Origin: Sphingopyxis sp. CCNWLW2
GTDB taxonomy: Bacteria; Pseudomonadota; Alphaproteobacteria; Sphingomonadales; Sphingomonadaceae
DNA length: 64,000 nt
Direction: 5' to 3'
Assembly: GCF_037095755.1 (NCBI RefSeq)
Contig: NZ_JBAWKJ010000003.1
Span: 558,001-622,000, forward strand
The position numbers were made by a program, and so were the translations under genes. The notes under the pieces were generated by a model. It did not search any database. It was not told the DNA's origin and was given only the letters and a program-made list of their open reading frames with translations. This document shows, piece after piece, positions 45,948 through 61,150 of the stretch (positions within the stretch are counted from its first letter, which is position 1; every line of letters begins with the position of its first letter).

Positions 45948-46033
45948 GGACAGGTGGCCGAGTGGTTAAAGGCAGCAGACTGTAAATCTGCCCGGGTTTC
46001 CGTACGCTGGTTCGAATCCAGCCCTGTCCACCA
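45948..46033 (+). tRNA. tRNA-Tyr (GTA anticodon)
   Basis: 86 bases with encoded CCA. Acceptor GGACAGG/CCTGTCC, anticodon stem GCAGA/TCTGC with loop CTGTAAA giving GTA, class II long variable arm, T loop TTCGAAT. The tyrosine recombinase gene starts the island 58 bases past its 3' end, so its 3' half is the probable attachment site. Confidence 0.96.
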
Positions 46034-46091: not shown

Positions 46092-47273
46092 CTACGGCTG
46101 GGGCGTGTGTAATTTTGGTGTAATCTCAGCGGGGACGGAAATGTCCAACGTGCTGATGGCATCGTGCACATGCTCGCCGAACAGGTGAACATAGTGAAGC
46201 ACCTGCGACGCCGTTTTGTGGCCGCTGATTTTCTGAATGGTGGGAATGTCCGTTCTCGCCATGACTAGCGAACTGATGGCGGTGTGGCGCATGATATGCG
46301 GGGTGCAAAGCTTCGGGTCGAGTCCTGCGCGTTTCACGATGCGCGCGAAAGGTTCACGCATATCGGGCCGATAAGCCGTCTGGCAGTTCCTTCGTGCGGC
46401 GGGAAATATCCACCCGTCGGGATCCGCCTCCATCTTTCGTTGACGAATGAGGGCGTCCCTCAACGCCGGGGTGATTGGCTGCTGCCGCTCGCCCGCTTTG
46501 GCCTTATCAATCCAGATGAAGCAGTTCTCGAAATCAATTTCGTCATATCGCCGACGCACGATCTCGGAATGGCGCATGGATGCGTTCAGGCCAAACATGA
46601 CGAAGAGCCAGGCTCTTCCGTCCTGATCTTCGATCGCCGCCTTGAGCAAGCTTTGCCGCTGTGCGACGGAGAGGATCCTGATTTGCTTCCGTGCTTCTTT
46701 CTCTTTCGGGATTTCCGGGACGTCTTCCTTCTTCATCCATGACCAGTCTTTCGATGCCGCCCGGTTGAGCATGTGCGACAATGTCGACATTTCGCGATTG
46801 ATGGTGGCCTCCCGGGCTCCCTCGCTGAGACGATGCTGCCGATATTGGCCGAGCCGAAAGCCCGTGATTTTGTCGAGGCGATCGCGCCCTAGAAATGGGA
46901 CGAGGCGCTGTTTCAAATGGCGCCGTTTATTCTTCATGTCCTTTCCGCCGCTCGATTCCATTCGGTCGATGTAGTCATCAGCCGCCTCGGAAAACGAACG
47001 GTGAAGTTTGCGGCCTTCGGGAAGATTGAACCGATCGGCGCGGGCGTCCGTCCTCAGTTTCTCGATGAGGCGTTCGGCCGTACCCCTTTTCGTTCCTTCG
47101 CTTTCGCGGCCCACGACCCTGTGAATGCGCTTTGCGTCGACCATTATATTGATCGACCACCGAAGATCACGATTTGGCAGCCTTTCTGCGGTGATCCCAT
47201 GCTCGGTCACGCGCTCCCCCGGAGAGAGCGCTCGTAGAAGGCGGCTATCCAATTTAGCAAAGCGCAATGCCAC
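46092..47273 (-). CDS. Tyrosine recombinase / integrase
   Basis: 393 residues from a GTG at 47273. N-terminal arm-binding and SAM-like core-binding domain (about 100-210, FSEAADDYIDRMESSGGKD), then the catalytic domain: Arg in NASMRHSEIVRRR, H-x-x-R in PHIMRHTAISSL, His in ISGHKTASQVLHYVH with the Tyr nucleophile. All catalytic residues are present. It points toward the tRNA-Tyr 3' end, the usual layout for an island integrase. Its GTG overlaps the stop of the preceding gene by one base. Confidence 0.94.
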   Translation of the reverse strand: MALRFAKLDSRLLRALSPGERVTEHGITAERLPNRDLRWSINIMVDAKRIHRVVGRESEGTKRGTAERLIEKLRTDARADRFNLPEGRKLHRSFSEAADDYIDRMESSGGKDMKNKRRHLKQRLVPFLGRDRLDKITGFRLGQYRQHRLSEGAREATINREMSTLSHMLNRAASKDWSWMKKEDVPEIPKEKEARKQIRILSVAQRQSLLKAAIEDQDGRAWLFVMFGLNASMRHSEIVRRRYDEIDFENCFIWIDKAKAGERQQPITPALRDALIRQRKMEADPDGWIFPAARRNCQTAYRPDMREPFARIVKRAGLDPKLCTPHIMRHTAISSLVMARTDIPTIQKISGHKTASQVLHYVHLFGEHVHDAISTLDISVPAEITPKLHTPQP

Positions 47274-48115: not shown

Positions 48116-48697
48116 TCCGAAAATACAGCGCGCGAATTATCAGGGGCAGGGCAGTCTGCGCAGACGAGCGTTCTTGCCGGACGTCGCGCGGGCCGATTCT
48201 ACGCAGCGGTCGGATAGCGGCAGTGTCGATGTTTCGCGAATCCACCGTGGCAAACGGGCGGCATGGCAAATCCGCGCCGCCCGTTTGCCACGGTGATTAA
48301 TGCGACTGGCCGATTTGAGACAGGCAGCTTTTGGGCGGCGATCTGAGCAAGCAGACATTCGCTTCTCCCGGGCCGCGACAACCTGCAAACGCCAACGGGC
48401 TCACTGGCAATCTACGCGAAGAGAGCATGACGCCGTTCCATCGTAGACGATTGATGGCTTATTTGTTTCCAGGTTCGTCGGTTTCGTGTCTGGTCACGTG
48501 GGCGGGCCGGCGGCATCGCGCCAAGAAGCATCTATTCTTTGGCATGTCGGCCCATCCGACCAAATAAGCCGGGCGATATTGCCTGTCGGGAGGAAGTGAG
48601 CGAGAGGATCATTAGGGCATTCGGTCCCGTCGCCCTCGCTCGCAGTGACTGTTCGGTTGCGTATCGCTGCGCGCGCCCTTGTTTCGGAAAGGTAAGG
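48116..48697. other. Gene-poor stretch in the island
   Basis: About 580 bases without a convincing gene. It holds a long perfect hairpin (48243-48295). Short frames here lack ribosome sites and balanced composition. The upstream frame extension of the next gene (from 48539) is also unconvincing. Confidence 0.6.
48243..48295. repeat. Perfect 20-bp inverted repeat
   Basis: CACCGTGGCAAACGGGCGGC and GCCGCCCGTTTGCCACGGTG are exact reverse complements around a 13-base loop. No T-run follows on either strand, so a DNA-level role (recombination, transfer or replication hairpin) is as likely as termination. Confidence 0.85.
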
Positions 48698-49558
48698 ATG
48701 GACGTCGGCACTGCAGGTTTCGTAAATTTGGTCGGGCACGGCATTACGATTGAGGCCGAGCGTGAGATAGCGCCCGGCATAACGGTGTCGGGCCAGGCGC
48801 CAACCAACGACAGCTCATTCGGCAGCCGGACAGTTGGCGAACTTCGCGAGACGCTGAACGTCATGTCGATGGAACCGCTCGCCGATTTTTCCCTGCGCAT
48901 TATCGGCGACAAGGGTGGCCAAACCCTACCAGCAAAGGCGTGGAACGCGCTCTGGATTTTCCATCTGCTTGCGTTGGCTTGTCGGCGTCCGGTGATGCCG
49001 CTCTATTGCGCAGCCAATCATGGCACGCGATTCACGCTCGCAAATCGCAACCTCGTGATCCATCGCTTGCCGAGCGTCGCGCCTGCCGGTGATAATGACC
49101 TCCGCTGGGCCACCGTACATTTCGATGCGTTCCATGGCCTGCTCAATGAGAACCGTTTCCAGAAAGCTGTGCGATGCTATGGTAACGCGCACTATCTTTT
49201 TGACGACGATGCCAAGATCATGCTGCTCTGGTCGGGCATCGAGGGGCTGCTCGATGTCGATTCCGAGCTGCGGCGGCGCATCGCACTACACGCGGCCATC
49301 TTGCTTGACGGCACCCCAGCGGAGAAGGCGCTTTACTTCGAGCGCGTCAAGAAAGGCTATGACGTGCGCTCGCGGGCAGTACATGGCAGCATCGCGAAAC
49401 CAGAAATGCTGCAACAGGGATATGAACTCGCGGGCGATGTACTGCTCACCTTGCTACGCAAATGCGTGGAACTTGGCCGGGTGCCGAGCGCAAAGGAGCT
49501 GGATGAGCGAGCGGCCAGCGTGTCGCTGGCCTCTAGCATCGCCAGCGTTCACGACTGA
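48698..49558 (+). CDS. HEPN (ApeA-like) domain protein 1
   Basis: 286 residues from the ATG at 48698 with GGAAAGGTAAGG upstream. The N-terminal 160 residues form an unrecognised beta-rich region. The C-terminal helical domain has LLWSGIEGLLDVDSELRRRI and the HEPN-type R-x4-H in GYDVRSRAVHGS. HEPN domains of this kind are often metal-independent RNases in defence and toxin systems. The stop overlaps the next start by one base, so two HEPN proteins are translated together. Activity is inferred. Confidence 0.75.
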   Translation: MDVGTAGFVNLVGHGITIEAEREIAPGITVSGQAPTNDSSFGSRTVGELRETLNVMSMEPLADFSLRIIGDKGGQTLPAKAWNALWIFHLLALACRRPVMPLYCAANHGTRFTLANRNLVIHRLPSVAPAGDNDLRWATVHFDAFHGLLNENRFQKAVRCYGNAHYLFDDDAKIMLLWSGIEGLLDVDSELRRRIALHAAILLDGTPAEKALYFERVKKGYDVRSRAVHGSIAKPEMLQQGYELAGDVLLTLLRKCVELGRVPSAKELDERAASVSLASSIASVHD

Positions 49559-50469
49559 TGCCGAGCTATTTCTTCCCGTGCCTCGCGCTTTCTCCCGGGG
49601 ACCTGCCGCGGACCGTCGAGACGGCGCGGGCCGTACTGCGCCAGCGCGAATGGGAAACGTCCACTTTCGATTTCGCGACGCTCGGCGCGTCGCACAAACT
49701 GCAATTTTCCTGGCATCTGCTCGACGTGTTCCTGAACGCGTGCAACCTCGAAATCGAGATCAAGGATGCGTCGGATTTCACAGACGCACAGGATCGCGTC
49801 CGCGTCCTGCAGGTGATGCTGTACCTGAAATGGGTGTCGCCGTTCGTTATGCCGGTCGGAATGACGCACACTCTGCGCGACTACAGCGGTATCAACTATC
49901 GCGATTCCGTGACGATGCGCGCCAAGCTGCCGCCCGGACTGCAGAGCGGGTTCGTGTCGGCGGACGGCAAAATCGAGGGTTGGCTGCACGAGCCGACATT
50001 CCAGTCGATTACGGTGGGGGCGGAGCGGACGGTTACAGCGCAGGCGTTCACCGATGCGGTCGATGCCGCAGAGCGCTGGACCGCACTGGAAGCGGCGCAT
50101 CAGCCGCTCAAGGCCGCTCGGCTCGCGTTGCAGACGGCGCCGGCCATACCGGACCTATCCTCATCACTGCTACATATCTGGCAAGGGATCGAGGCGCTGT
50201 TCCCCAGTGTCTCGACTGAAGTGTCGTTTCGACTCGGTCTGCTGGTGAGCCAGCTTTGCGCGCCGGTGCGGAGCGATCGCCTGAAAACCTATGAGGAAGC
50301 GAAGCGAAGCTATGGACGGCGTTCGCGAGCCGCGCATGGAAATGGCGGTAAGCTAAATGATCGCGATTGGGTCGATGCATGGGACCTGCTTATCCTGTGC
50401 CTGTCGGCCTGCCTTGCCCGTTCCGCGTTGCCGAGCGAGGACATGTTAACGCGCGAGCTGCTGGACTGA
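49558..50469 (+). CDS. HEPN (ApeA-like) domain protein 2
   Basis: 303 residues. N-terminal region unrecognised. The C-terminal helical domain has LLHIWQGIEALFPSVSTEVS, then EAKRSYGRRSRAAHGNGG with R-x4-H, the same layout as the upstream protein but diverged over the rest. The pair probably arose by duplication and may form a heterodimer, as paired HEPN domains need dimerisation for RNase sites. Starts one base inside the previous stop (TGATG). Confidence 0.75.
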   Translation: MPSYFFPCLALSPGDLPRTVETARAVLRQREWETSTFDFATLGASHKLQFSWHLLDVFLNACNLEIEIKDASDFTDAQDRVRVLQVMLYLKWVSPFVMPVGMTHTLRDYSGINYRDSVTMRAKLPPGLQSGFVSADGKIEGWLHEPTFQSITVGAERTVTAQAFTDAVDAAERWTALEAAHQPLKAARLALQTAPAIPDLSSSLLHIWQGIEALFPSVSTEVSFRLGLLVSQLCAPVRSDRLKTYEEAKRSYGRRSRAAHGNGGKLNDRDWVDAWDLLILCLSACLARSALPSEDMLTRELLD

Positions 50470-50521
50470 TCGTCGCACGCGCCTGCAATAACTTTGTCAC
50501 ATTCGGGCATTGAGGAATATG

Positions 50522-51019
50522 ATGGACGACCGCCTCTTCATAACAATCGGGAAGTATTTTATCGCCTTCCAATTCATCGAGGGACTAATCGATCAGGCCT
50601 TATTGATGCTTTGGGGACATGAGAATTGGACCGGCAGTCAAAAGCGGCTCGCCGCAATGTCGAATTTCCATAAGGTAGAAGCCCTTAGCCAAGAGATGCT
50701 GAAAAATGAGAGACTTGTGCGCGCTCAATCCCGCCCCGAATGGGACGACCTCGCAGCATCAACTCGCGATAGATTGCACCGCGAACGATCCACAAGAAAT
50801 CGTATTGCGCACTCGCAGTACCTTTTCGATGCCCTGAAATTCGATGGCCCAGTTGTGCAGTCGGCCAGGGTGAAAGAAGGCTCGGAAGTCAGGTTCGAAA
50901 CCGACATTATGACAGAGGAGATTCAGAATGCGTTGGTCGAGAACATTCTCGATCTGGTTAAATCGGTTAGCGCTTTGCGTACTCAACTACTTCAAGACTT
51001 CAGCGCCTCTGCGGAATAG
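50522..51019 (+). CDS. HEPN-like small protein
   Basis: 165 residues from the ATG at 50522, with GAGG six bases upstream; another ATG lies one codon earlier and a TTG at 50510. Entirely helical pattern with IEGLIDQALLMLWGHENW and an R-x4-H at RSTRNRIAHSQ. It ends with a coiled-coil-like helix. No N-terminal sensor region, unlike the two genes before it. Convergent with the operon to the right (stops 18 bases apart). Function unknown; RNase or antitoxin-like role possible. Confidence 0.65.
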   Translation: MDDRLFITIGKYFIAFQFIEGLIDQALLMLWGHENWTGSQKRLAAMSNFHKVEALSQEMLKNERLVRAQSRPEWDDLAASTRDRLHRERSTRNRIAHSQYLFDALKFDGPVVQSARVKEGSEVRFETDIMTEEIQNALVENILDLVKSVSALRTQLLQDFSASAE

Positions 51020-51037: not shown

Positions 51038-51712
51038 CTAGGTTTGCACGGGCACTGGATCCTCGCCGCATTTCCGAATTGTAACCTCCTCCACATAATC
51101 GGCTATATTCGGAACCCCGCCAATTACCGTCAATTCGACCACTGCCTCGTGACGCGACCGCCCCTTTTTTCGCCAATTTGAATATGGATACTGATCAATC
51201 GGAAGGAATGTTTCCGGTCCGCGAGGATGTGCGAACGGCATGGTGCAACCCGTGTTCATTGGGGCCAACTCAATCCGCTCACGATGATCATTAACCAGCA
51301 TCGCTGTATTAATCTTGAGGACGACGTGCTGTTGCTTCCGGTACGCACCCGCGCACAGCAACTTTTGCAGACGCTTTTCCGTCAGCCAGAAAAATACGCG
51401 CTCGTTCAGCTTTGCATGCCAATCAATCGGGCTAAGGCCGCCTTGAAGACACTTAGCGAGGTGGTGGTCGTACAGCGGGATCTGATCGCGGATCGTTGCC
51501 GAGCCAACTTCCGGGTGCGCGATAGGAAAGCTCGCTGGTCGTCGCTTAGTGGTGAGTTCAGCGCGCGTCTCATGATCCACATCAAAAAGTTCGAGAAGGC
51601 GATTTGTCGGAAGAAGCCCGTGCTTCTGAATCAGCGGCCAACTGTCCCTCATCGCCATGTGAAACAACGCCGGGCAATTTTTTAGCAGCTCACCGAGCTC
51701 TTCGTCCGTCAC
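51038..51712 (-). CDS. DUF7002-like protein, possible ADP-ribosyltransferase fold
   Basis: 224 residues from a GTG at 51712, which overlaps the preceding stop (GTGA) and has AGGAG seven bases upstream. N-terminus ALFHMAMRDSWPLIQKHGLL is the pattern of DUF7002 and resembles the entry motif of DarT-like and RES-like ART proteins (L-x-H-x4-x-W-x-x-I-x-x-x-G-L-L). Later ERVFFWLTEKRLQKLL and HVVLKINTAMLV fit the same family. The ART link is inference from motif shape. Last gene of the MazG-CHAT operon, tightly coupled. Confidence 0.65.
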   Translation of the reverse strand: MTDEELGELLKNCPALFHMAMRDSWPLIQKHGLLPTNRLLELFDVDHETRAELTTKRRPASFPIAHPEVGSATIRDQIPLYDHHLAKCLQGGLSPIDWHAKLNERVFFWLTEKRLQKLLCAGAYRKQQHVVLKINTAMLVNDHRERIELAPMNTGCTMPFAHPRGPETFLPIDQYPYSNWRKKGRSRHEAVVELTVIGGVPNIADYVEEVTIRKCGEDPVPVQT

Positions 51713-53343
51713 CAAGATCTCCTATCAATCACATTCCGCCAGTCAAACTTCGTAGATATCATTGTCACCGGTTGCCCTGCCACTCGCTCAACCTCTTCGA
51801 TGAACCGCAGGGTTTCTTCCGTGAGCTGCTCAAATCGAAAAGCTTGGCGATTCTTCACTGAAAGGTAATCAACAAACGTCAACGCGATATCGGTTGGACT
51901 GTTCAACAGGCATGAGCGGTGGAGCTGAGCCCAGTCGAATTCGCCAAGGCGCCGCTGTCGCAATGTGGTGGTAGTCACCTCGTTTGTTCGGAGCTCTTCA
52001 ATCGGAATACCGGACCGGTCGGAAAGGATCTCGTATGAGATTTCTCCGCCGCTGAGATCTCCAGACGGTCCTCCGACACGAATAGGATAGGTTCGAAACA
52101 CGACCACGACTTTTCGGACACGGCGAGGCGCGATACCCGCATCGGCCAAACAGCCGGCGACAGTCGTGTCGCGGGAGGTGACGTGTGGGTAGGGACCGTG
52201 ATGCAAACTAAGGCTCGTACCTTGGGTGCCCTCCAACAAAATCCTTTGACCGCGACAATACGCCAGCTCGAGCGTCCTTTGGCTTTCCCTGATATATGGT
52301 CTTAGCTCCGGAACATCCTTCGCTAGGCGCACGACGGGATCCTCCTTTCCTCCCCTTCCCATTATTTTCCGCGCCGAGGCAGATCCGACTCCCTGCGCGG
52401 TAGACCCCATGCTCGACAATTTCGCTACCTCGATGTCTCGATCGCGATCTTCGATGATCATCGCCTGCTCATCAATGATGAGCCGGTCGAACGGAATCTT
52501 ATGGGTAGTGATTTCAGTGAGCAGCTTCGGTGGATAGATTACGGCGCCGGGTCCAAGTATAAGTTGGGCATTAGGCGCCCTCTCCGATCCCGATGGCAGG
52601 TGGAAGTATGCTTCAGGCTTGGGCTCCGCATACACTTTGTGCCCCGCGTTTGGACCGCCGACCCGAACAAAGATATCATATTCAGGGGCGATATGTCCGA
52701 CTATGTTGCCTTTGCCCTCGCTCCCATACTGACCGCCGACGAGCACATCCACGAGGGGATCAACCGATCGCGGATACAATCCGAGCAGCGCAGTGGCCCG
52801 GACGAAAACGCCCTCAATTGTGCAGTAGTCGGTGTTTACGACCGTGTCGGCAACCTGCTTCAGGGCCTCGACATGGCGCTCCGTAGCGTTCGCCGCCGCC
52901 TGGCTGAAGCTAACCCCCGCATCTGACGCGGCAGTGCGTTCTGAATATCGGCGAGCTAGAGTGCCGTCTGAGGCTGTCAAATGAATGTGGTGGACAACGG
53001 AACTGCCAAATACGGCACGAATGGCCTCAATCTGTCCCGCGATTCTTACAGCGTCGAGCACGAAAAGCCCTGTGGACAGCCCAGCCTCTGATCCCTGCTC
53101 TTCTATGAGCGAAACAAGCGCATTTCCTACCCAACGCCCACCAGTCGATCGATCCAATCTCTCGCCGGCTTTCTGCAGTTCCAGTCTTTGGTCCTTGGTC
53201 CGCGGAGAGGCTTGAAGAATTAGTTGGCGCGTTTTGATCAAGATCGCGTCGTGACGCGCCACCAACGCCTGCGCGAGTTGCGTCTTGCCAGCCCCAATGC
53301 GCCCTGAAAGCAGCACTATCTGCAACCGAGGGCGTGGATTCAT
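51709..53343 (-). CDS. P-loop kinase fused to PurZ-like adenylosuccinate synthetase
   Basis: 544 residues, two domains. Residues 1-185: P-loop nucleotide-kinase-like domain with Walker A LLSGRIGAGKT and HIHLTASDGTLARRY, a dNMP- or adenylate-kinase-like pattern. Residues 196-544: adenylosuccinate-synthetase fold with GGQYGSEGKGN, VGGPNAGHKVY (catalytic His 235), MGSTAQGVGSA, EGTQGTSLSLHHGPYPHVTS. The P-loop Asp that acts as base in PurA (W-G-D-E-G-K-G) is Ser208 here, the change that marks phage PurZ, which acts on dGMP. This gene is clearly not the housekeeping purA. It starts two bases after the previous stop. Substrate inferred only. Confidence 0.85.
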   Translation of the reverse strand: MNPRPRLQIVLLSGRIGAGKTQLAQALVARHDAILIKTRQLILQASPRTKDQRLELQKAGERLDRSTGGRWVGNALVSLIEEQGSEAGLSTGLFVLDAVRIAGQIEAIRAVFGSSVVHHIHLTASDGTLARRYSERTAASDAGVSFSQAAANATERHVEALKQVADTVVNTDYCTIEGVFVRATALLGLYPRSVDPLVDVLVGGQYGSEGKGNIVGHIAPEYDIFVRVGGPNAGHKVYAEPKPEAYFHLPSGSERAPNAQLILGPGAVIYPPKLLTEITTHKIPFDRLIIDEQAMIIEDRDRDIEVAKLSSMGSTAQGVGSASARKIMGRGGKEDPVVRLAKDVPELRPYIRESQRTLELAYCRGQRILLEGTQGTSLSLHHGPYPHVTSRDTTVAGCLADAGIAPRRVRKVVVVFRTYPIRVGGPSGDLSGGEISYEILSDRSGIPIEELRTNEVTTTTLRQRRLGEFDWAQLHRSCLLNSPTDIALTFVDYLSVKNRQAFRFEQLTEETLRFIEEVERVAGQPVTMISTKFDWRNVIDRRSW

Positions 53344-53345
53344 TC

Positions 53346-54677
53346 TTAGAAACCCATATCTTGCTGGGTCTGCCTAGGTGGGAGATCGTAAATCCATACC
53401 CCCTTCTGCAATCCCTCAAAATTCTGTCTAATTATTGACTCCACAACCTCCCAATCCGCACCAGCTCCTCCGGTACCGATACGGGGCATGTGTACGGAGC
53501 AATCGTGTCGCTTGGCGTACTCTGCGACGCGGCGCAGACAATCATTCAACGCATGATATCGTATCCGGCTTGCGCTCTGCCCGTACCCCTCTTGTGCCAC
53601 CAGACTCGCAAGGATCACCTCTCCTTTCGTGCGCGCGAAGTGCACCTCTCCTAGCCTTGCCGCGCGGGGAACAGTTTTGATCCATTCGCCAAACTCGGCT
53701 TCCGCGTTAGGATGTCTGCGAGCCATCTGCCGCGCTACACCGCCGCCCCAGCGAACGGCTCGATCGTTTACAAGCTGGCACACGATAATTGGCGGGATTT
53801 CCCGAGGCGATAGAATGTCGCCATGGATGAAATGCATAAAGTCGGATAGCCGCCGCTCATTGTGACGAATTAGGCCAGCTACCCGCGGCAATGCTGTGCC
53901 TGGGTAACCGGGGATACCGACACACTCGATCAATGCCTCGCCATTTTGCCACCAACTTTCAATGCCCCGCGCCGAAGCTCCAATTGCAGTGCATTGTCGC
54001 ACCACGCTAGTTGATGGGACAATCTGCTCCCTAAGATCTCGAAGCGGAGCGGTCTCAGATGGGGCAGTATAGTCTATTCGGTAGTCGTAAGTGTCTCCAG
54101 ATGAATGGGCCGACGCGATGAACATCGTCACTGGCTCCGCGGTGACACTCACGATCCGAATGAGATACGCCTCGACCGACACGTCAAACTTCATCCGGTC
54201 CGCCAACAATGTCTCAAGCGACGGCACTTCAGTCAGCTTTGGAAGGCTGCCGATCGGCATGACCATTTCGGCCGCGCCAATGTTGCAAAGTAGCTCTAGC
54301 TGCCAATCGTCCGAGATCGTCTTGTCGCCTCCCCGATGCCGCACCGCTTCGCCATGGTCGGGAAAAAACGTGTGCACAATTTCGTGGGCGATGGAAAAGC
54401 GAGCGCGAGCTCGACGCTGCTGCGGATTATATTCGATGCGAGTGCCACGCTCATCGACGATGGTCCGTGCATCCGGAACCGCCGCGCTGGCCTCAACTGG
54501 AATTCGCAGCACTTTGGCAAGTGCAATTGGGTTAAACGGGGGACCCTGCCATCCTTCGTCCCGTGCGCGCAATACGACAGCGCGCGCCATCTTTATGATC
54601 GCTTCGACCGGATCGGCATTTGGCGAGAAACGACGAACCGATTCATTGGTCCAATGCTTCACGCCAAACTGTCTCAT
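53346..54677 (-). CDS. ImmA/IrrE-type zinc protease fused to macro domain
   Basis: 443 residues from the ATG at 54677. Residues about 20-215 are an ImmA/IrrE (COG2856) peptidase: FNPIALAKVLRIPVEASAAV, then the zinc motif HEIVH at 98-102 within RFSIAHEIVHTFFPDHGE, and LLCNIGAAEMVMP with the third Glu. Residues about 285-443 form a macro domain: IVCQLVNDRAVRWGGGVARQ, PRAARLGEVHFARTKGEVIL and VHMPRIGTGGAGADWEVVES, close to TARG1/ALC1-type ADP-ribose hydrolases. The middle (215-285) is unassigned. It lies 19 bases after the MazG-CHAT gene. The fusion suggests cleavage of a repressor or partner in response to an ADP-ribose-type ligand (inference). Confidence 0.85.
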   Translation of the reverse strand: MRQFGVKHWTNESVRRFSPNADPVEAIIKMARAVVLRARDEGWQGPPFNPIALAKVLRIPVEASAAVPDARTIVDERGTRIEYNPQQRRARARFSIAHEIVHTFFPDHGEAVRHRGGDKTISDDWQLELLCNIGAAEMVMPIGSLPKLTEVPSLETLLADRMKFDVSVEAYLIRIVSVTAEPVTMFIASAHSSGDTYDYRIDYTAPSETAPLRDLREQIVPSTSVVRQCTAIGASARGIESWWQNGEALIECVGIPGYPGTALPRVAGLIRHNERRLSDFMHFIHGDILSPREIPPIIVCQLVNDRAVRWGGGVARQMARRHPNAEAEFGEWIKTVPRAARLGEVHFARTKGEVILASLVAQEGYGQSASRIRYHALNDCLRRVAEYAKRHDCSVHMPRIGTGGAGADWEVVESIIRQNFEGLQKGVWIYDLPPRQTQQDMGF

Positions 54678-54696
54678 TATCTGTCCAAGTCCTGAA

Positions 54697-56388
54697 TTAA
54701 TTCTCGGCACGATGGGCCGAGCGGGTACCGGATATGCGGGCCACGATGTGACGGTCCATGCCCATAGACTCAAGGGCGGTCTCCGCAATCCCTACTGCCT
54801 CTTCGGGGCTTCGCCCAGATGCAAGCGCGTCGTAGAAACCCTTTGCGAATACGATCGCTTCGTCGTCGTCGATTTCGTCGACCATGCCGATTATGAGCGG
54901 CCCGGTGGCCCTATCTAACCCTTGCATTGCGCTACAAGCATTCAATATCACGCACTTAAGGCTTTTCTGAACCTCGAGCATCTTCATCAGCGCGCCAAAC
55001 TCGAGTGTATGGGAACCGTCCTCACCTTCGAGTTCAATCCCTTCAGCATTGGCGTGTCCGGCAAAGTGCACCACATCAAAACTGTTCGAAAGCAATCGAT
55101 GTCGTAAACTGTCGACGGTGGCCGCTGTGAGGGTAGAAATATTGATGCGATCGCGCTCATTGCCCATCAACACGCGCTCTTGAATCGCACTAATCTCACG
55201 ATCCAGCCGTAAAGCCCGATCGTCCCTTCCGCGGGGGTTCGCCGTCACAACGAGAATATTGGTATCGAGGATATGTGTCAGGGGCCGAAGTTCCGGCTGC
55301 TCAAGCTCAATAGCCGCTTGGATTTCTGGATCCGCCTTCAGCCACGCTTCTTTCAACAAGTCGAGCACGTCCACCGTAAGGCGATGCGCCTCCGTCCCAC
55401 TTTGACGCTTCTCATTGCCGAGCCTGATAGCCAATTCGAACAACTGATCGGCAGTTTCTTTATTGTCTCCAAGCGCATTGGCCAGCCGGAACGCCAATTG
55501 CGTTAGACCCGCATTCATCTCACCGCGATCAAACGGGAGGTAGGTGTCGATCCCAGTTACTCGACCGACACTTTCCAGAACTCTGTTAGCCACATCCCGA
55601 CCGCTCTTCTCAAACTCCTCGGCGTTTTGGATTGCTCCAACGCTGAGGGGCATCTCCTTAGCCATGCGCCCTACGGTGGCCTGAGGAACCGTAGGGCAAA
55701 TGCAAATCTTGGCGCCGCACGCAATGCAAAGCCCAGGATATCGAGCAAGATATTCCACCTGAAAATCGAAGGTCTCATCGCGTTCACTCAACGCCAAAGA
55801 ATACTCGTTGGCTAAGCCCATGATGTATGAAAATACGTCCGCCGCCTCGCCATAAAAGTAGTGAGGGTATCTGTCGAAAACGCGCACTGCTTCCGCAAGT
55901 TCGCCGACCTCCTCAAGCAAAGCGATCGTGCTAAATCCGGCAGCAGCGTTATATGATCGAGGGTAGATACGGCCGAACATAGCTTGCCATTCATTGAGAT
56001 CCTTAGGCCTTGAATCCCAATTTTCGCTCGTAAGCTCCCTAACCTTCTCGTGAGAAAGAACCTCCTCGGTCCCTCGCACGAGCTTACAATCCTGCTCAGC
56101 ATGGGGCGACTTTCGACAGTAGGGGCATACGCCGGGATATTTGGCGAACAGCAATTGCTCGACGCTTTCGACGCCCATTTTCGCAAGTAGTGGAAAGTAC
56201 CAGCCCAACGCTTTGCAGAGAGCGCCCGGAACGTCGAACTTGTCTCGCTTCTTTTTCCGATCGATCAACGTCAGCATGCCGCAGACCTCGACGAAATGAA
56301 GGAGCGTAGCCTCCCTGCTACGACCAAGATTGGCGTCCTGATAAATGTGTGCCGTCATTCGGTAGAGATCATCCAACGACAACTGCAT
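54697..56388 (-). CDS. MazG-like pyrophosphohydrolase fused to CHAT protease
   Basis: 563 residues from the ATG at 56388 (GGGGG upstream; a TTG at 56400 is a weaker start). Residues 85-101 hold a Cys cluster (CPYCRKSPHAEQDC); 150-215 a MazG domain with E-E-x-x-E at 159-163 (LLEEVGELAEA) and E-x-x-D at 181-184 (GEAADVFSYI); 221-231 a second Cys cluster (CIACGAKICIC). From about 370 a CHAT caspase-like domain: VVHFAGHANAEG (His445) and CVILNACSAMQG (Cys485). MazG enzymes hydrolyse NTPs or dNTPs to NMPs; CHAT proteases are effectors in several immune systems. First gene of the operon, divergent from a DUF3644 gene. Confidence 0.87.
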   Translation of the reverse strand: MQLSLDDLYRMTAHIYQDANLGRSREATLLHFVEVCGMLTLIDRKKKRDKFDVPGALCKALGWYFPLLAKMGVESVEQLLFAKYPGVCPYCRKSPHAEQDCKLVRGTEEVLSHEKVRELTSENWDSRPKDLNEWQAMFGRIYPRSYNAAAGFSTIALLEEVGELAEAVRVFDRYPHYFYGEAADVFSYIMGLANEYSLALSERDETFDFQVEYLARYPGLCIACGAKICICPTVPQATVGRMAKEMPLSVGAIQNAEEFEKSGRDVANRVLESVGRVTGIDTYLPFDRGEMNAGLTQLAFRLANALGDNKETADQLFELAIRLGNEKRQSGTEAHRLTVDVLDLLKEAWLKADPEIQAAIELEQPELRPLTHILDTNILVVTANPRGRDDRALRLDREISAIQERVLMGNERDRINISTLTAATVDSLRHRLLSNSFDVVHFAGHANAEGIELEGEDGSHTLEFGALMKMLEVQKSLKCVILNACSAMQGLDRATGPLIIGMVDEIDDDEAIVFAKGFYDALASGRSPEEAVGIAETALESMGMDRHIVARISGTRSAHRAEN

Positions 56389-56543
56389 CTTTGCCCCCAA
56401 TGCGCCTCTAGAAGCCCCATTCTTCGTATCCGTGGTAGGAAGAGAGCACCGAATTCCTCGAATTACAAATCAAACTGTCTCCAATTTTCTGATAGGTGTC
56501 GTCGCCAACCCGCATTCGGTCCAGGAATCGAGGTACTAAGTCC
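56389..56543. promoter_or_regulatory. Divergent promoter region, MazG-CHAT operon / DUF3644 gene
   Basis: 155 bases between start codons of opposite genes, AT-richer than the flanks. Both transcripts must start here; I can not place -35 and -10 boxes with confidence. Confidence 0.4.
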
Positions 56544-57746
56544 ATGCCAAGTCGAAAACGAGGTCATAGTCTTGAGCGATGGGAAGTCGCATTAGTCAAA
56601 GCTATGCTCGCTACCAAAAAGTACAATGATCAAGACATTCTCGCCTACTTCACGAGACCAACTCGCTCGATTAATCACCGGCTGATTTCGGAGATACGCT
56701 CGGAAAAGAGGCACAAGGCTGTTAAATCCGCAGGCGCCGACCAGCTGGAAGACTATCTGAGCTGTTGGCCCGACGTCGACGGTGAAACGGGACTGAGTCT
56801 CCGTGGGGACGAGCTACTTGTTAAGTCGCGCGAGGCGATGATCGCAGCAGTCCACAATTTCAATTCGGCAGGCCTCCAGTTTCGCGCTGAGATATTTATC
56901 ACGACGGCAATGATCGGCTGGACCTACCTTTGCCACGCCTGGTTCAAGCGCGAAGGTATCGACTACCGCCACAAAGCCAATGGTGTGCCGAAAATTCTGG
57001 CGAGCGGTGCGGAATCGTATTGGGAGCTCGGCAAGTGTTTGAAAAACGACAAATTGCCATTGAGCAAGGGCGCGAAACAGAACCTCGCACTGTTGTTGGA
57101 GATCCGGCACGAAATCGAGCATCGGTCCACGGATCGAATAGACAATGCGCTCGGCCCGTTGATGCAAGCTTGCTGCATTAATTTTAACGAAGCCATCCGT
57201 GCATGGTTTGGCGCCCAATTCGGACTTGAGCGCCGGTTGCCGATTGCACTCCAATTCGCGACATTTGATGCGGCACAGGTAGCGGGCCTCAAAAAACAGT
57301 CAGCTCTTCCAACAACGGTCGCGTCGACCATGGACGCATTTCACGCCAAGATGAGTGACGGCGAATTGAAGGATCCTGCCTTCTCTTACCGTGTTGCATT
57401 TGTTCCAAAACTTGGCGCGAAAGCGAGCAAAGCGGACACGGCCATTGAGTTCATCAAGCCTGATTCAGAAGAGGCCAAGGCGATCAACGCGGTCTTGCTC
57501 AAAGAGGTCGACAAATCCCGCTACACCGCGAGGCAAATAATCGACGCGATGCGCGCTGAAGGGTACGAGCGATTCAATCAAACGGCTCATACATCACTGT
57601 GGAAAGAGCTGGACGCTAAAAATCCCATAAACGGTTTTGGCAAAGCGGGTGACTACAAGAACACATGGGTCTGGTTCGACAGCTGGCTCGCTCGCGTTCG
57701 GGCGCATTGCCAAGAGAATGCTCCAAAATATCTCGCTGCGGGCTGA
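56544..57746 (+). CDS. DUF3644 (HEPN-like) protein
   Basis: 400 residues from the ATG at 56544 with GAGG ten bases upstream. The DUF3644 core is LLVKSREAMIAAVHNFNSAG, then AEIFITTAMIGWTYLCHAWF and a HEPN-type R-x4-H (LEIRHEIEHRST). N-terminal 70 residues are a helix-turn-helix-like basic segment (YNDQDILAYFTRPTRSINHR); the C-terminal 110 residues resemble a DNA-binding or winged-helix tail (SRYTARQIIDAMRAEGYERF). Divergent from the MazG-CHAT operon and perhaps its partner or regulator. Confidence 0.8.
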   Translation: MPSRKRGHSLERWEVALVKAMLATKKYNDQDILAYFTRPTRSINHRLISEIRSEKRHKAVKSAGADQLEDYLSCWPDVDGETGLSLRGDELLVKSREAMIAAVHNFNSAGLQFRAEIFITTAMIGWTYLCHAWFKREGIDYRHKANGVPKILASGAESYWELGKCLKNDKLPLSKGAKQNLALLLEIRHEIEHRSTDRIDNALGPLMQACCINFNEAIRAWFGAQFGLERRLPIALQFATFDAAQVAGLKKQSALPTTVASTMDAFHAKMSDGELKDPAFSYRVAFVPKLGAKASKADTAIEFIKPDSEEAKAINAVLLKEVDKSRYTARQIIDAMRAEGYERFNQTAHTSLWKELDAKNPINGFGKAGDYKNTWVWFDSWLARVRAHCQENAPKYLAAG

Positions 57747-57847: not shown

Positions 57848-60800
57848 TCATTGCCGGCCATGCCCATTCCTATCTCGAAACCACTTCTGGTCAGCGAGTG
57901 CATGATCATCATGTGCGGCTGGAGGCAGTGAAGGTTCTCCTCGAGCAGAGTTTCCGGTGCCGAAGGTTAAATCACGAAACGTTGCGAACTCCGAATTCGA
58001 GGCTTGCTGATGGTTCGAGGCTTTCGGATCACGTGGGGCAGCGGAGTTGCGACGCGGGAGTCGTGCGCTCTCTTCGAGTACGGAAGCAATTTCAGGATGA
58101 TCACACCATTGAGCCGCGAAATAGCATAGATCTTCGTCGCTTCCTTCAATGATCCAGCGATTGTTGCCCCTAGAGGCGATCAGTTCCCCGGCCTCGAATG
58201 CCTCCAATATCTGCGCCCTCCGTCTGGCGCGGTTATTCTCCACTTGGAGCCGGTGACGCTCGGCGTCCCGCGCCTTCTTGTGATCTTCCTCCCATCGGTC
58301 ATCTATCGCCTTCTCGACGGACTCGTCGTCCTCGAAAGCCTCTACGCTCCATTTCCAGTCGGGAACACTGGAAGGATCGACACGTCGTTTCCCGTCGGTC
58401 GTTAGGATGCGCACATCTGGACCGGTTCGGATCGCAACAGCGTATGCTTCGATGGTCTCTTCGCGCGACGGGCTAGGGTTGGCGACTGACATCGCGGGAG
58501 ACTGATCGGGTGCCGCGAGTGGGGGTTCCAAGTGCTCTTCATCATGCGATTCGACCTCGATCTCGGACTGAGAAAAGGCCGCTTCGACAGACGACCGCAC
58601 GCGACGCCAGATCGATGGCTCCTTGGCGGAGGCGACCTCCTGCTCTGGAGTCTCCCATCCCATCAGGCGCGCTGCGAGAGGATGATCTCGATAGGCCTGA
58701 AGGGTCTGCAACGGGAGATTTTTCGCGGTGGTATCGCTCGAGGTCGTGCTTCTTTCCGCTGCGGCTGCAGGTCCATAGGATTTGTACAGAAGATGAGCGC
58801 GCTTGATCTCGTCGATCTGCCGCTTGGCCAGATCGGCCAACTCGGTCTGGGCGCGGTCTTTGGTGCTAGGGTCACGCAGGACCTGCAATTCGGCGCGGCT
58901 GACTCCTGCGACACGATAGCCGTCGTCGCCGTGGTACTCTGGGCCAAGCACTACAAGCCGGTCTGCCGATATCCTCGCGATGATTGTCGCAAGCTCGGGC
59001 TGCCTGACTGGGTCAGCAATCATGGGCTCGTTTGCGGGCGTGACTACCCGCTTCTCATTCCGCAGGTCCTGCTCGGGTGCGATGAGAATTGGATCCCGCG
59101 GTGCGGGTGAGGACGTCGTCGACGGCGGAAGGAGGGAAGGCGCGGAGACCCTCGGACTATGCAAGGATTGTACTTCCGGTGATTTCGGAACCGCCAACCG
59201 TCCCAAATAATTCGCCGCCGCGAACAGGTCGCGGAGCGCCTCGTCAATCAGCGGACGCTGTCCTGCGATGACTTTCTGGTTCTCACGGTCAATTTGCTCG
59301 ATCGTCTGGAGAAATGCAGTCGCTTCGTCTCGGCGCTGCAGAATGCGGGCCCTATTCCGGCGATCTGTTGACTTCCCGCCGCCAGCTTCAAGGTCGTCAA
59401 TAATACGCGAGCAGAGATTTAGGACCTTTGCCGGCCTTGCGCGCGCCATTGCGAGCGTCACGTCATATTCGGCCAGTTCGGGCTCAACCAAGTCGAGGAA
59501 TTTCGCAGCCCGCACCGCTCGCTCAAGAGCAGCACGGGCGGCCGGGGTGTCGGGATCAGAGGGCGACATCCGGTCAACTGCGGCACTGATAATTTCGATG
59601 GTCTGTTCACGTAGCGCGCGGGCGGGCTCACAGTCGGTAACGCAGGATTTGAGCTCGTAGCTCCAAATGATCTCAGAATTGATCGAGCCTTTCACCGTCG
59701 GTACTCCGGCCGCCTCCAGCGGAGCAAGCCGCGTTCCAAGCTTCTTGGTAGGCTGTCGGTCGATACCCATGAGCGAGTATTTCCGCGGATCGAAGAGCCG
59801 CTTGCTTCCCGCCAATTCGAGCTCCTCGTTGCAGATGTCGGCGAACTTGCGGCGCAGATATTTTAGGAAGGCTTCAAAATCGCCGCGGTTCGAACTCGTT
59901 TTCAGGTGCGATAGGACGACCTTTTTCTGACGCTCCTTGAAATTGACACGCCCACTTTGCCCTTCGACAGCCGTGGCGATCGTGAAGTCCCACAGACCGT
60001 TGATAAGGCTCGCGGGCCGGTCGTGCGCAACCAAATGCAGATGGTAATTGCGGCCATCATTATGTTCGTCGGGCTCGTGGATCACGAGCGTGTACATCGC
60101 ACCGGTCGTCTCCACTTCCTCCGCCACTTTGACCATGATGCGTACCCGAGCGGCATCGTCCAATCCGTCAGGAATCTCGGTCTCGAGTCTGTATTGCGTT
60201 CGGCCCTTTCGACCTCGTGCAAACCGTACGGGTCCCTTTTTCCGATCAGCGCCCGGAATAGACAGACGGATGAGGTCGATCGCCGAGGCGGCCTCTTCGT
60301 CCGTCATTGGGAGTTCCGCCTTGCGCAACAGCGTTCCGGCAGCAAATTGAGCGGCAATGTCCCGAATGTTTGAAGGGGCATCCTCGGCAGCGGCGAGCGC
60401 CTTCCATTCCTTCCGCGATGCCCGTGAAGGTTCCAAGATGAGCCGATCGGCGCCGGCCTTTCGTGCAGTCGAATGCACAGCGCTCCAGAAGCTCGCCCTC
60501 ACTGCGGGATCCAGGCTGATGTTCGACATTAGTGCGACATCGCCGCGGGCATTGTTGGAACCAGTGTTTTCACCACGTGCAGCGTAACCATCAAACTCAG
60601 CGGGGCCGATCGTCATGACAGCGCCCTCGCGGGCGATATATTTGTCGTGATCGCCGGGGTGGCTTTCCTTTTCGCGCGCCTTGCCACGCGTGTCCGACAC
60701 TACGGATTTCCCATCCGAGTTTCTTGTGACCGTCGTCCAGCGGAAGTGGAAGCTGACATGACCTTCCGGCGATGTTGGGCGATGCCAAAATGGTCCGGGA

Positions 60801-61150
60801 ACAGAGAAGCTCGGTGGAATGATCCAGCGACCGCCTTTGATCCGAGCTTGCAATTCGTCGTCCATGGCGCGTTTCGGAATCTTGATTCGCCAAGCCAGAG
60901 CTTGCTCTTCTTCGATTTCCAACATGCGGCGAAGTTTCTTCGAGCAGCGGCCTATGGGTGTCAGTGGGCGCAGCATACGATCTCCAAAAGTCTGTTGGAG
61001 AAATTGTAACAGCCGTGTTTCTTCGCTGGCTAGATCGGTATCGAAAATAGTTCTGATTTTATTGGTTAATTCCGGTTCGACATCGAAATGCATAGCTGCG
61101 TGCAAAAGTGACGGGGACCCTCCCGAACGCCCTCTATGCTCCGAATTCAC
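57848..61150 (-). CDS. MobA/MobL-like relaxase, large
   Basis: 1100 residues from a GTG at 61150; an ATG at 61093 is a good alternative. The region around residue 365 holds the metal-binding His triad pattern YHLHLVAHDRPA, preceded by EVETTGAMYTLVIHEPDEHN, as in MobA/MobL conjugative nickases. Around 430-480 are EAFLKYLRRKFADICNEELE and LFDPRKYSLMGIDRQPT, family motifs. The C-terminal 500 residues are charged, with Pro-rich linkers and no helicase or primase motif. No type IV secretion or coupling genes are in the window, so it would mobilise the element with outside help. Confidence 0.75.
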   Translation of the reverse strand: MNSEHRGRSGGSPSLLHAAMHFDVEPELTNKIRTIFDTDLASEETRLLQFLQQTFGDRMLRPLTPIGRCSKKLRRMLEIEEEQALAWRIKIPKRAMDDELQARIKGGRWIIPPSFSVPGPFWHRPTSPEGHVSFHFRWTTVTRNSDGKSVVSDTRGKAREKESHPGDHDKYIAREGAVMTIGPAEFDGYAARGENTGSNNARGDVALMSNISLDPAVRASFWSAVHSTARKAGADRLILEPSRASRKEWKALAAAEDAPSNIRDIAAQFAAGTLLRKAELPMTDEEAASAIDLIRLSIPGADRKKGPVRFARGRKGRTQYRLETEIPDGLDDAARVRIMVKVAEEVETTGAMYTLVIHEPDEHNDGRNYHLHLVAHDRPASLINGLWDFTIATAVEGQSGRVNFKERQKKVVLSHLKTSSNRGDFEAFLKYLRRKFADICNEELELAGSKRLFDPRKYSLMGIDRQPTKKLGTRLAPLEAAGVPTVKGSINSEIIWSYELKSCVTDCEPARALREQTIEIISAAVDRMSPSDPDTPAARAALERAVRAAKFLDLVEPELAEYDVTLAMARARPAKVLNLCSRIIDDLEAGGGKSTDRRNRARILQRRDEATAFLQTIEQIDRENQKVIAGQRPLIDEALRDLFAAANYLGRLAVPKSPEVQSLHSPRVSAPSLLPPSTTSSPAPRDPILIAPEQDLRNEKRVVTPANEPMIADPVRQPELATIIARISADRLVVLGPEYHGDDGYRVAGVSRAELQVLRDPSTKDRAQTELADLAKRQIDEIKRAHLLYKSYGPAAAAERSTTSSDTTAKNLPLQTLQAYRDHPLAARLMGWETPEQEVASAKEPSIWRRVRSSVEAAFSQSEIEVESHDEEHLEPPLAAPDQSPAMSVANPSPSREETIEAYAVAIRTGPDVRILTTDGKRRVDPSSVPDWKWSVEAFEDDESVEKAIDDRWEEDHKKARDAERHRLQVENNRARRRAQILEAFEAGELIASRGNNRWIIEGSDEDLCYFAAQWCDHPEIASVLEESARLPRRNSAAPRDPKASNHQQASNSEFATFRDLTFGTGNSARGEPSLPPAAHDDHALADQKWFRDRNGHGRQ

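Follow-up and report, generated by a model that had tools for sequence, protein, structure and literature searches.

The window analysed here is the whole stretch of 64,000 nucleotides at positions 558,001 to 622,000 of contig NZ_JBAWKJ010000003.1 from Sphingopyxis sp. CCNWLW2. It contains a run of four genes on the minus strand that encode MazG-CHAT (a MazG-like half and a CHAT protease), ImmA-macro (an ImmA-type metalloprotease fused to a macro domain), kinase-PurZ (a P-loop kinase fused to a PurZ-type synthetase) and a DUF7002 protein (Table 1). All four open reading frames are present as placed in the original prediction, with spacings of 19 and 2 bases followed by a 4-base GTGA overlap. 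The frames are not due to chance, since full-length relatives of the three longer proteins are found in the protein database and relatives of DUF7002 in other genomes. The prediction took the four genes as one undescribed immune system. The module of the three downstream genes is a recurring unit, and MazG-CHAT is not a constant part of it.

Table 1. Genes, domains and other features at the locus (positions in the window unless marked as contig positions).
Feature	Position	Strand	Description
DUF7002	51038..51712	-	224 aa, GTG start; predicted DarT-fold ADP-ribosyltransferase; core gene; Pfam DUF7002 4.8e-69
Kinase-PurZ fusion	51709..53343	-	544 aa, ATG start; core gene; Pfam Adenylsucc_synt 3.2e-53, AAA_33 5.2e-6
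Kinase-PurZ, N-terminal P-loop kinase domain	52774..53343	-	residues ~1-190; AAA_33/AAA_18
Kinase-PurZ, C-terminal PurZ-type synthetase domain	51712..52755	-	residues ~197-544; GSEGKG with S208, and H235
GTGA overlap of 4 bases	51709..51712	-	kinase-PurZ stop and DUF7002 start
ImmA-macro	53346..54677	-	443 aa, ATG start; IrrE/CapP-like metalloprotease and macro domain
MazG-CHAT	54697..56388	-	563 aa, ATG start; accessory gene; N-terminal half Cys-rich and MazG-like, C-terminal half CHAT protease
Tyrosine-recombinase integrase	46092..47273	-	Phage_integrase 1.5e-21; adjoins tRNA-Tyr
tRNA-Tyr	45948-46033
tRNA-Tyr 3' segment, 56 bases	45978..46033	+	predicted attachment site; exact repeat at contig 669922-669977
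MobA/MobL relaxase gene	57848-61150		Pfam match; within the ~66 kb element

The Pfam matches to DUF7002, Adenylsucc_synt, AAA_33, Macro and CHAT all exceed their cut-offs. Conservation was read from alignments of 20 rows for MazG-CHAT, 17 for kinase-PurZ and 16 for ImmA-macro. The four residues singled out beforehand as active-site candidates (CHAT C485, MazG E163, H235 of the PurZ-like domain and E99 of the HEIVH motif) are invariant in them. The suggested search against defence profiles (PADLOC, E 0.1 or better) left kinase-PurZ, DUF7002 and MazG-CHAT all without a model. Promoter and terminator scans gave results no better than shuffled sequence, and the Rfam search returned tRNA only.

Kinase-PurZ was found at 24 loci, 8 on plasmids, 5 on viral contigs, 10 in genomes of two orders and one in the window. 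The viral contigs gave 12 loci altogether: the 5 full fusions, six stand-alone PurZ-type genes and one gene cut by the contig end (L068), which is excluded from the 24. DUF7002 directly follows kinase-PurZ in 20 of the 24 loci (none is found in L060, L061, L085 and L086). ImmA-macro directly precedes it in seven (the window, L058, L059, L077, L078, L081 and L082), and all three genes occur together in 7/24. One locus, L080, stops at the contig edge. In the 19 loci with the pair besides the window the start codon of DUF7002 always lies 10 bases or less from the kinase-PurZ stop (19/19), and the position of the 4-base overlap offers a start codon in 11 of them. The other main form of the locus comprises 11 loci (L050-L057, L079, L083 and L084) with an HD phosphatase and a protein of about 455 amino acids within a few kb; ImmA-macro stands beside kinase-PurZ in none of these. 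Sinorhizobium meliloti BL225C carries this form on pSINMEB01. In a tree of the PurZ domain the two forms fall mostly in two supported subtrees, with L078 outside the first. Longest contigs of the same size were shared by the lists of kinase-PurZ and ImmA-macro relatives 23 times, against 1.09 in controls made by 120 shifts of the protein lists (119 of the 120 rows for MazG-CHAT, as P0224 names no contig).

Two further genes occur at some of these loci. At three of them (L062, L085 and L086) the kinase domain occurs once more, as a copy standing alone in front. A metalloprotease-like gene directly follows DUF7002 in L059 (10276-11430) and L082 (9192-10313) and directly follows kinase-PurZ in L085 (8750-9865); it matches PADLOC peptidase_U41 at 1.3e-7 in L085 and 3.5e-7 in L082, with weak M48/M78 matches.

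Position 13 of Escherichia coli PurA is an aspartate. It is reported to be 99% conserved in PurA, whereas each of the 147 PurZ-group sequences from phages has serine instead (PMC12884076). The PurZ clade is marked by Ser at the Asp13 place (Gly in some archaea), and Ser is present there in all 23 kinase-PurZ rows, in 6/6 viral stand-alone rows and in 7/7 phage PurZ/PurZ0 rows, as well as in 120 of the 120 listed relatives of kinase-PurZ. The five archaeal and five bacterial PurA rows all have Asp. L054 was excluded from the tree and from its motif set, hence the 23 rows, and the S-2L sequence itself was not part of the tree. The maximum-likelihood tree of 46 rows places the 23 kinase-PurZ sequences in one group (100/99) within a PurZ clade of 36 rows (100/99); the PurA sequences of Thermococcus and of bacteria fall outside this clade. 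The domain is by sequence a PurZ and not a PurA, as the PurZ-like label given earlier had it. Phages use enzymes of this clade to turn deoxyguanosine monophosphate (dGMP) into a precursor of 2-aminoadenine. Kinase-PurZ also matches PHROG 1211, '2-aminooxy adenylosuccinate synthetase', at 1.1e-61. The nearest solved chains to the domain are archaeal PurA followed by phiVC8 PurZ, so overall similarity alone would mislead. S208 and H235 are kept in 17/17 rows. In the kinase domain D97 is kept in 17/17 rows, and the Walker A motif is found in 115 of the 120 listed relatives; the five rows that lack it are shorter.

Six viral contigs (L063-L067 and L069) carry a stand-alone PurZ-type group with Ser that is distinct from both sampled phage groups; these are possibly further Z-genome phages. 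PurZ has been described as an enzyme of archaeal origin with which viruses build their genomes (PMC12884076, PMC8342488). From the stand-alone PurZ-type genes of phages and of the six viral contigs, and from the position of the genes on mobile DNA, it could be argued that they serve ordinary purine salvage or are left over from a Z-phage and play no part in immunity. We consider this very unlikely, as another gene of the genome keeps the PurA aspartate and the frequent partner DUF7002 has a predicted toxin fold.

The PurZ assignment would also allow kinase-PurZ itself to be the effector, a nucleotide poison that would turn the dGMP pool into 2-aminoadenine nucleotides. These would be built into phage DNA or stall it, and DUF7002 would act on such nucleotides or on DNA. 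The fused kinase would finish the path to the triphosphate, and the datZ-mazZ-purZ genes of S-2L are reported to be toxic in E. coli and to introduce Z into the host DNA (PMC8342488). Against this, Pfam gave no DatZ-type or polymerase family for the ten window proteins that were scanned, and ImmA-macro is left unexplained. We regard this reading as rather unlikely.

The predicted structure of DUF7002 has an ADP-ribosyltransferase (ART) fold of the DarT type, in agreement with the earlier suggestion of a possible ART-fold protein. The sequence alone gives no such assignment. Pfam at E<0.1 returned DUF7002 alone, with no match to the DarT family (PF14487). DUF7002 as a DarT by sequence was rejected, as a profile search of the PDB returned DarT1 at E 1.3, behind talin hits (best 0.019) that we attribute to chance.

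ImmA-macro matches Macro (1.5e-5) and Peptidase_M78 (1.9e-4, 21.6 bits against a cut-off of 22) in Pfam, and capP (3e-17) and DarG (5.6e-6) in PADLOC. A profile of 16 rows found macro domains in the PDB (2fg1 at 5.7e-37, 5e3b at 1e-32, CHD1L at 3.9e-15, C6orf130 at 3.4e-8 and 5m31 at 6.3e-5), IrrE (3dte, 5.5e-9) and CapP (0.052). The HExxH residues H98, E99 and H102 and the further glutamate E128 are kept in 16/16 rows. The NCBIfam DarG model gives 18.2 bits against a cut-off of 250, with a match to the macro region alone. Alongside a protein of predicted DarT fold, a macro domain would fit an antidote or a sensor of ADP-ribose.

These two proteins invite comparison with DarTG. The likeness lies in the predicted DarT fold of DUF7002 and in the macro protein found in the operon at 7/24 loci. 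Unlike DarTG, there is no DarT family match and no detectable sequence relation, DarG is far under its cut-off, the macro domain forms one protein with an ImmA protease and the commonest partner of DUF7002 is a nucleotide enzyme. A toxin-antitoxin pair that mainly secures the mobile element in its place, with DUF7002 as toxin, ImmA-macro as antidote and kinase-PurZ as regulator, would suit the fold, the macro matches to DarG and C6orf130 and the plasmid and integrase-bearing settings. It is nevertheless unlikely: the ART-like gene has no adjoining ImmA-macro in the 11 loci of the HD-phosphatase form, and the partner that stays with it is kinase-PurZ rather than the macro protein.

MazG-CHAT was found in one of the 24 kinase-PurZ loci, that of the window. 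In a collection of 84,980 species a pattern scan found relatives of one or another part of MazG-CHAT at 42 loci. The match runs through the CHAT half at seven of them (L001-L007) and is limited to parts ahead of CHAT at the others. On the examined DNA, up to 10 kb on each side with some contigs short, none of the 42 has kinase-PurZ or ImmA-macro, and 41 have none of the three other genes. Kinase-PurZ is also absent from the whole of the 12 genomes of these loci that were scanned, the seven with full-length genes included; the query did detect kinase-PurZ in other genome scans, and this absence is soft because the 12 are mostly metagenome-assembled genomes (MAGs). Among 385 genomes of the class MazG-CHAT was found in that of the window alone, and of 248 genomes from another family two have it, one of which was already in the pattern scan. 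The claim of one conserved four-gene unit is therefore not upheld: a search for the same order in other genomes finds the three-gene module again and MazG-CHAT apart from the other three in the seven full-length loci.

A true four-gene system, with MazG-CHAT as a constant protease arm and MazG feeding PurZ as MazZ does in S-2L, would account for the adjacency in the window. Same-size longest contigs are shared 3 times by kinase-PurZ and MazG-CHAT (0.83 in controls; 2 of 120 shifts as high) and 3 times by ImmA-macro and MazG-CHAT (1.13; 10 of 120 as high). The best case outside the window is a contig size of 21,021 bases common to all three families (P0010, P0139 and P0259; 64-74% identity), and a pair at 15,230 bases (P0001 and P0121) is 95-98% identical to the window. 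Apart from this three-way match and this window-like pair the coincidences with MazG-CHAT are near chance; kinase-PurZ with ImmA-macro alone stands out among the pairs. Contig sizes, first taken as evidence of linkage on 74 of the 120 rows, were dropped as such with 119 rows and the shift control. Together with the locus counts above, this makes a four-gene system improbable.

The CHAT half of the protein is well defined. Pfam gives CHAT at 4.5e-10, the domain is found in all 20 family members and the His-Cys dyad (H445 and C485) is kept in 20/20 rows, which places the protein in the CHAT family. Looser motifs in 120 listed relatives, some of them fragments, find His in 115 and Cys in 107. The nearest solved CHAT is 8tl0 (3.8e-20). 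The label MazG is weak. The metal-site motif of the MazG type, EExxE...ExxD (E159/E160/E163...E181/D184), is kept in 20/20 rows, and an EExxE-type motif is found in 120/120 and GEA[AT]D in 118/120 of the listed relatives. The Pfam match is E 0.09 (13.5 bits against a cut-off of 22), MazG was detected at E<0.1 in five of the 20 members (best 0.0055), and hhalign of the family against 29 MazG rows detected no relation. MazG-CHAT is probably a separate nucleotide-gated protease, a second and independent defence gene, in which the nucleotide-binding MazG-like half would gate the CHAT protease.

The MazG-like half is also found with a GGDEF domain (9.1e-31) in place of CHAT (L013:7698-8981) and with short, unassigned C-terminal tails (L008:452-1867, L010:5371-6522 and L011:9812-11131), which we read as hydrophobic effector segments. 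These combinations suggest that the half is an input domain whose outputs can be exchanged. Relatives of all or part of the N-terminal half (L014-L040) occur in Thermococcus, Woesearchaeota, Parvarchaeota and genomes of the Patescibacteria type. In an Acidobacteriia MAG a fragment of DUF7002 (L012:1222-1584; 1e-6) has a MazG-like fragment as its neighbour, perhaps the remains of a former link between these families. A MazG frame of 559 amino acids in genome G029 was rejected as a relative of MazG-CHAT, since none of the four profiles matched it.

In the other form of the kinase-PurZ locus the HD protein tested (L050) matches the PHROG of deoxynucleoside monophosphate (dNMP) phosphatases at 6.5e-63 and that of dATPases at 3.1e-7, and was therefore rejected as a DatZ. 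One of three HD proteins tested reached the Pfam cut-off for YfbR-like proteins. Phages are reported to escape the Kongming system through depletion of dAMP by Dmp enzymes (PMC12948488). In a similar way, a dNMP phosphatase could deprive a neighbouring enzyme of the PurZ type of its substrate, and partly for this reason we favour a dNMP as input. The protein of about 455 amino acids, X455 (L050:10107-11462), accompanies kinase-PurZ, DUF7002 and the HD phosphatase in the 11 loci. It has no match in Pfam, NCBIfam, PADLOC or PHROGs and none in the PDB better than E 1. Its C-terminal part may resemble ATP-grasp proteins of the phosphoenolpyruvate-synthase type.

Our tentative reading of the three-gene module is a nucleotide-controlled, DarT-like ART effector restrained by ImmA-macro. 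Gene order, recurrence, the PurZ clade and the conservation of catalytic-type residues in every part are observed, and the ART fold is predicted. During infection a purine monophosphate pool would rise, for instance dGMP from degraded host DNA. The PurZ half would add aspartate to the monophosphate and the fused kinase would phosphorylate the product, possibly after the action of host PurB. The resulting non-canonical purine nucleotide would bind DUF7002 or its restrainer and switch DUF7002 on, which with NAD+ would mark nucleic acid or nucleotide and so stop the infection. The macro half of ImmA-macro would remove or sense ADP-ribose, and the ImmA half would cleave a partner by which the block is set or released. 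In the other main form the HD dNMP phosphatase and X455 stand in for ImmA-macro, which would fit control by draining of the dNMP substrate.

Several observations weigh against this reading. ImmA-macro is absent from most of the 24 kinase-PurZ loci, and at L052, one of the loci of the HD form, a sequence about 3 kb away weakly matches the ImmA half alone (2.3e-4). The pair of kinase-PurZ and DUF7002 is not obligate, since 4/24 loci lack DUF7002 and two of the five DUF7002 genomes above the cut-off have no kinase-PurZ close by. The module is rare, with 4 of 396 genomes in its own order (the window's genome counted) and 7 of 397 in the order of genome G776. Comparison of DUF7002 with two small DarT sets (two and three rows) by hhalign gave a probability of about 1% or less; because this profile-profile comparison is blank, the link to DarT rests on the predicted structure and one aligner. 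The PDB matches of the kinase domain are marginal (best 0.034). The NCBIfam model of phage PurZ, NF038379, scores 188.7 bits against a curated cut-off of 300, and for this reason kinase-PurZ is assigned to the PurZ clade and not to the NF038379 family; the low score would fit a separate branch beside the phage enzymes. A defence role would follow from neighbourhood and fold only.

In wider terms, and somewhat doubtfully, bacteria may have taken a Z-nucleotide enzyme from the chemistry of viral genomes and rewired it into immunity, in which a 2-aminoadenine-type nucleotide made by kinase-PurZ from a purine monophosphate would be the alarm or the bait. A new family of DarT-like ADP-ribosyltransferases would answer it, controlled by a protease-macro protein in one form and by a dNMP phosphatase in the other. 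If this is true, a bacterial clade of kinase-fused PurZ, with a predicted nucleic-acid-modifying ART usually next in line, would bring new purine chemistry to nucleotide-based immunity, DUF7002 would gain a proposed function and deliberate synthesis of Z-type nucleotides by bacteria would become directly testable.

The module shares single traits with several known systems. With the phage Z-cluster (PurZ, MazZ and DatZ, as in cyanophage S-2L and vibriophage phiVC8) it has in common a synthetase of the same clade with the same change of Asp to Ser, an adjoining MazG-like protein in the window and, in the other form, a nearby HD phosphatase that is YfbR-like. It differs in its position on chromosomes and plasmids, in the fusion of PurZ to a kinase followed by a predicted ART, in an HD protein (one tested) that is much closer to dNMP phosphatases than to dATPases, and in the lack of a polymerase family among the ten window proteins scanned. 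Kongming (KomABC) signals with deoxyinosine triphosphate, a non-canonical purine nucleotide alarm made by a base-changing enzyme and a kinase (PMC12948488). The idea of such an alarm is the same, and unlike in Kongming the kinase would here be built in. The families that we take to be those of KomA, KomB and KomC are absent from the Pfam matches of the four genes. The protease half of ImmA-macro resembles the CapP/IrrE (ImmA-type) regulators of cyclic oligonucleotide-based antiphage signalling systems (CBASS) and of related systems, with the difference that it is fused to a macro domain and that Pfam and PADLOC found neither a CBASS cyclase nor an effector among the ten window proteins scanned. 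The structure 8tl0 is named SAVED-CHAT (PMC11417357). MazG-CHAT is like it in having a half of nucleotide-binding type ahead of a CHAT protease, and unlike it in that the Cys-rich MazG-like half replaces SAVED.

That the gene set is undescribed agrees with the missing PADLOC models and with the papers listed by the literature searches, which excluded preprints wholly and subscription journals mostly, so that a description elsewhere is possible. DUF7002, MazG with 'CHAT domain', PurZ with 'defense system' and 'macro domain', and adenylosuccinate synthetase with 'anti-phage defense' were not found there. Adenylosuccinate synthetase, CHAT and MazG occurred together in a phage genome paper only, and PMC7159879 does not mention MazG, CHAT, PurA or adenylosuccinate. 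DefensePredictor lists MazG as a predicted, unvalidated defence domain (PMC13092281).

The integrase-bearing island of the original prediction is borne out by the tyrosine-recombinase integrase at tRNA-Tyr, the exact 56-base repeat and a drop in GC content (0.53-0.60 inside the element and 0.63-0.71 over most of the flank). The repeat, about 66 kb further on, predicts an integrated element of about 66 kb. For three consecutive plus-strand open reading frames at 48539-51019, neither Pfam nor NCBIfam nor PADLOC gave a match (E 0.1 or better). Ten proteins sampled from the far part of the element gave no PADLOC match and include histidine kinases, a cytochrome b and a TonB receptor. Divergent from the operon lies a gene for a DUF3644 protein (56496-57746, plus strand), which matches the PADLOC candidate PDC-S19 at 8.5e-103.

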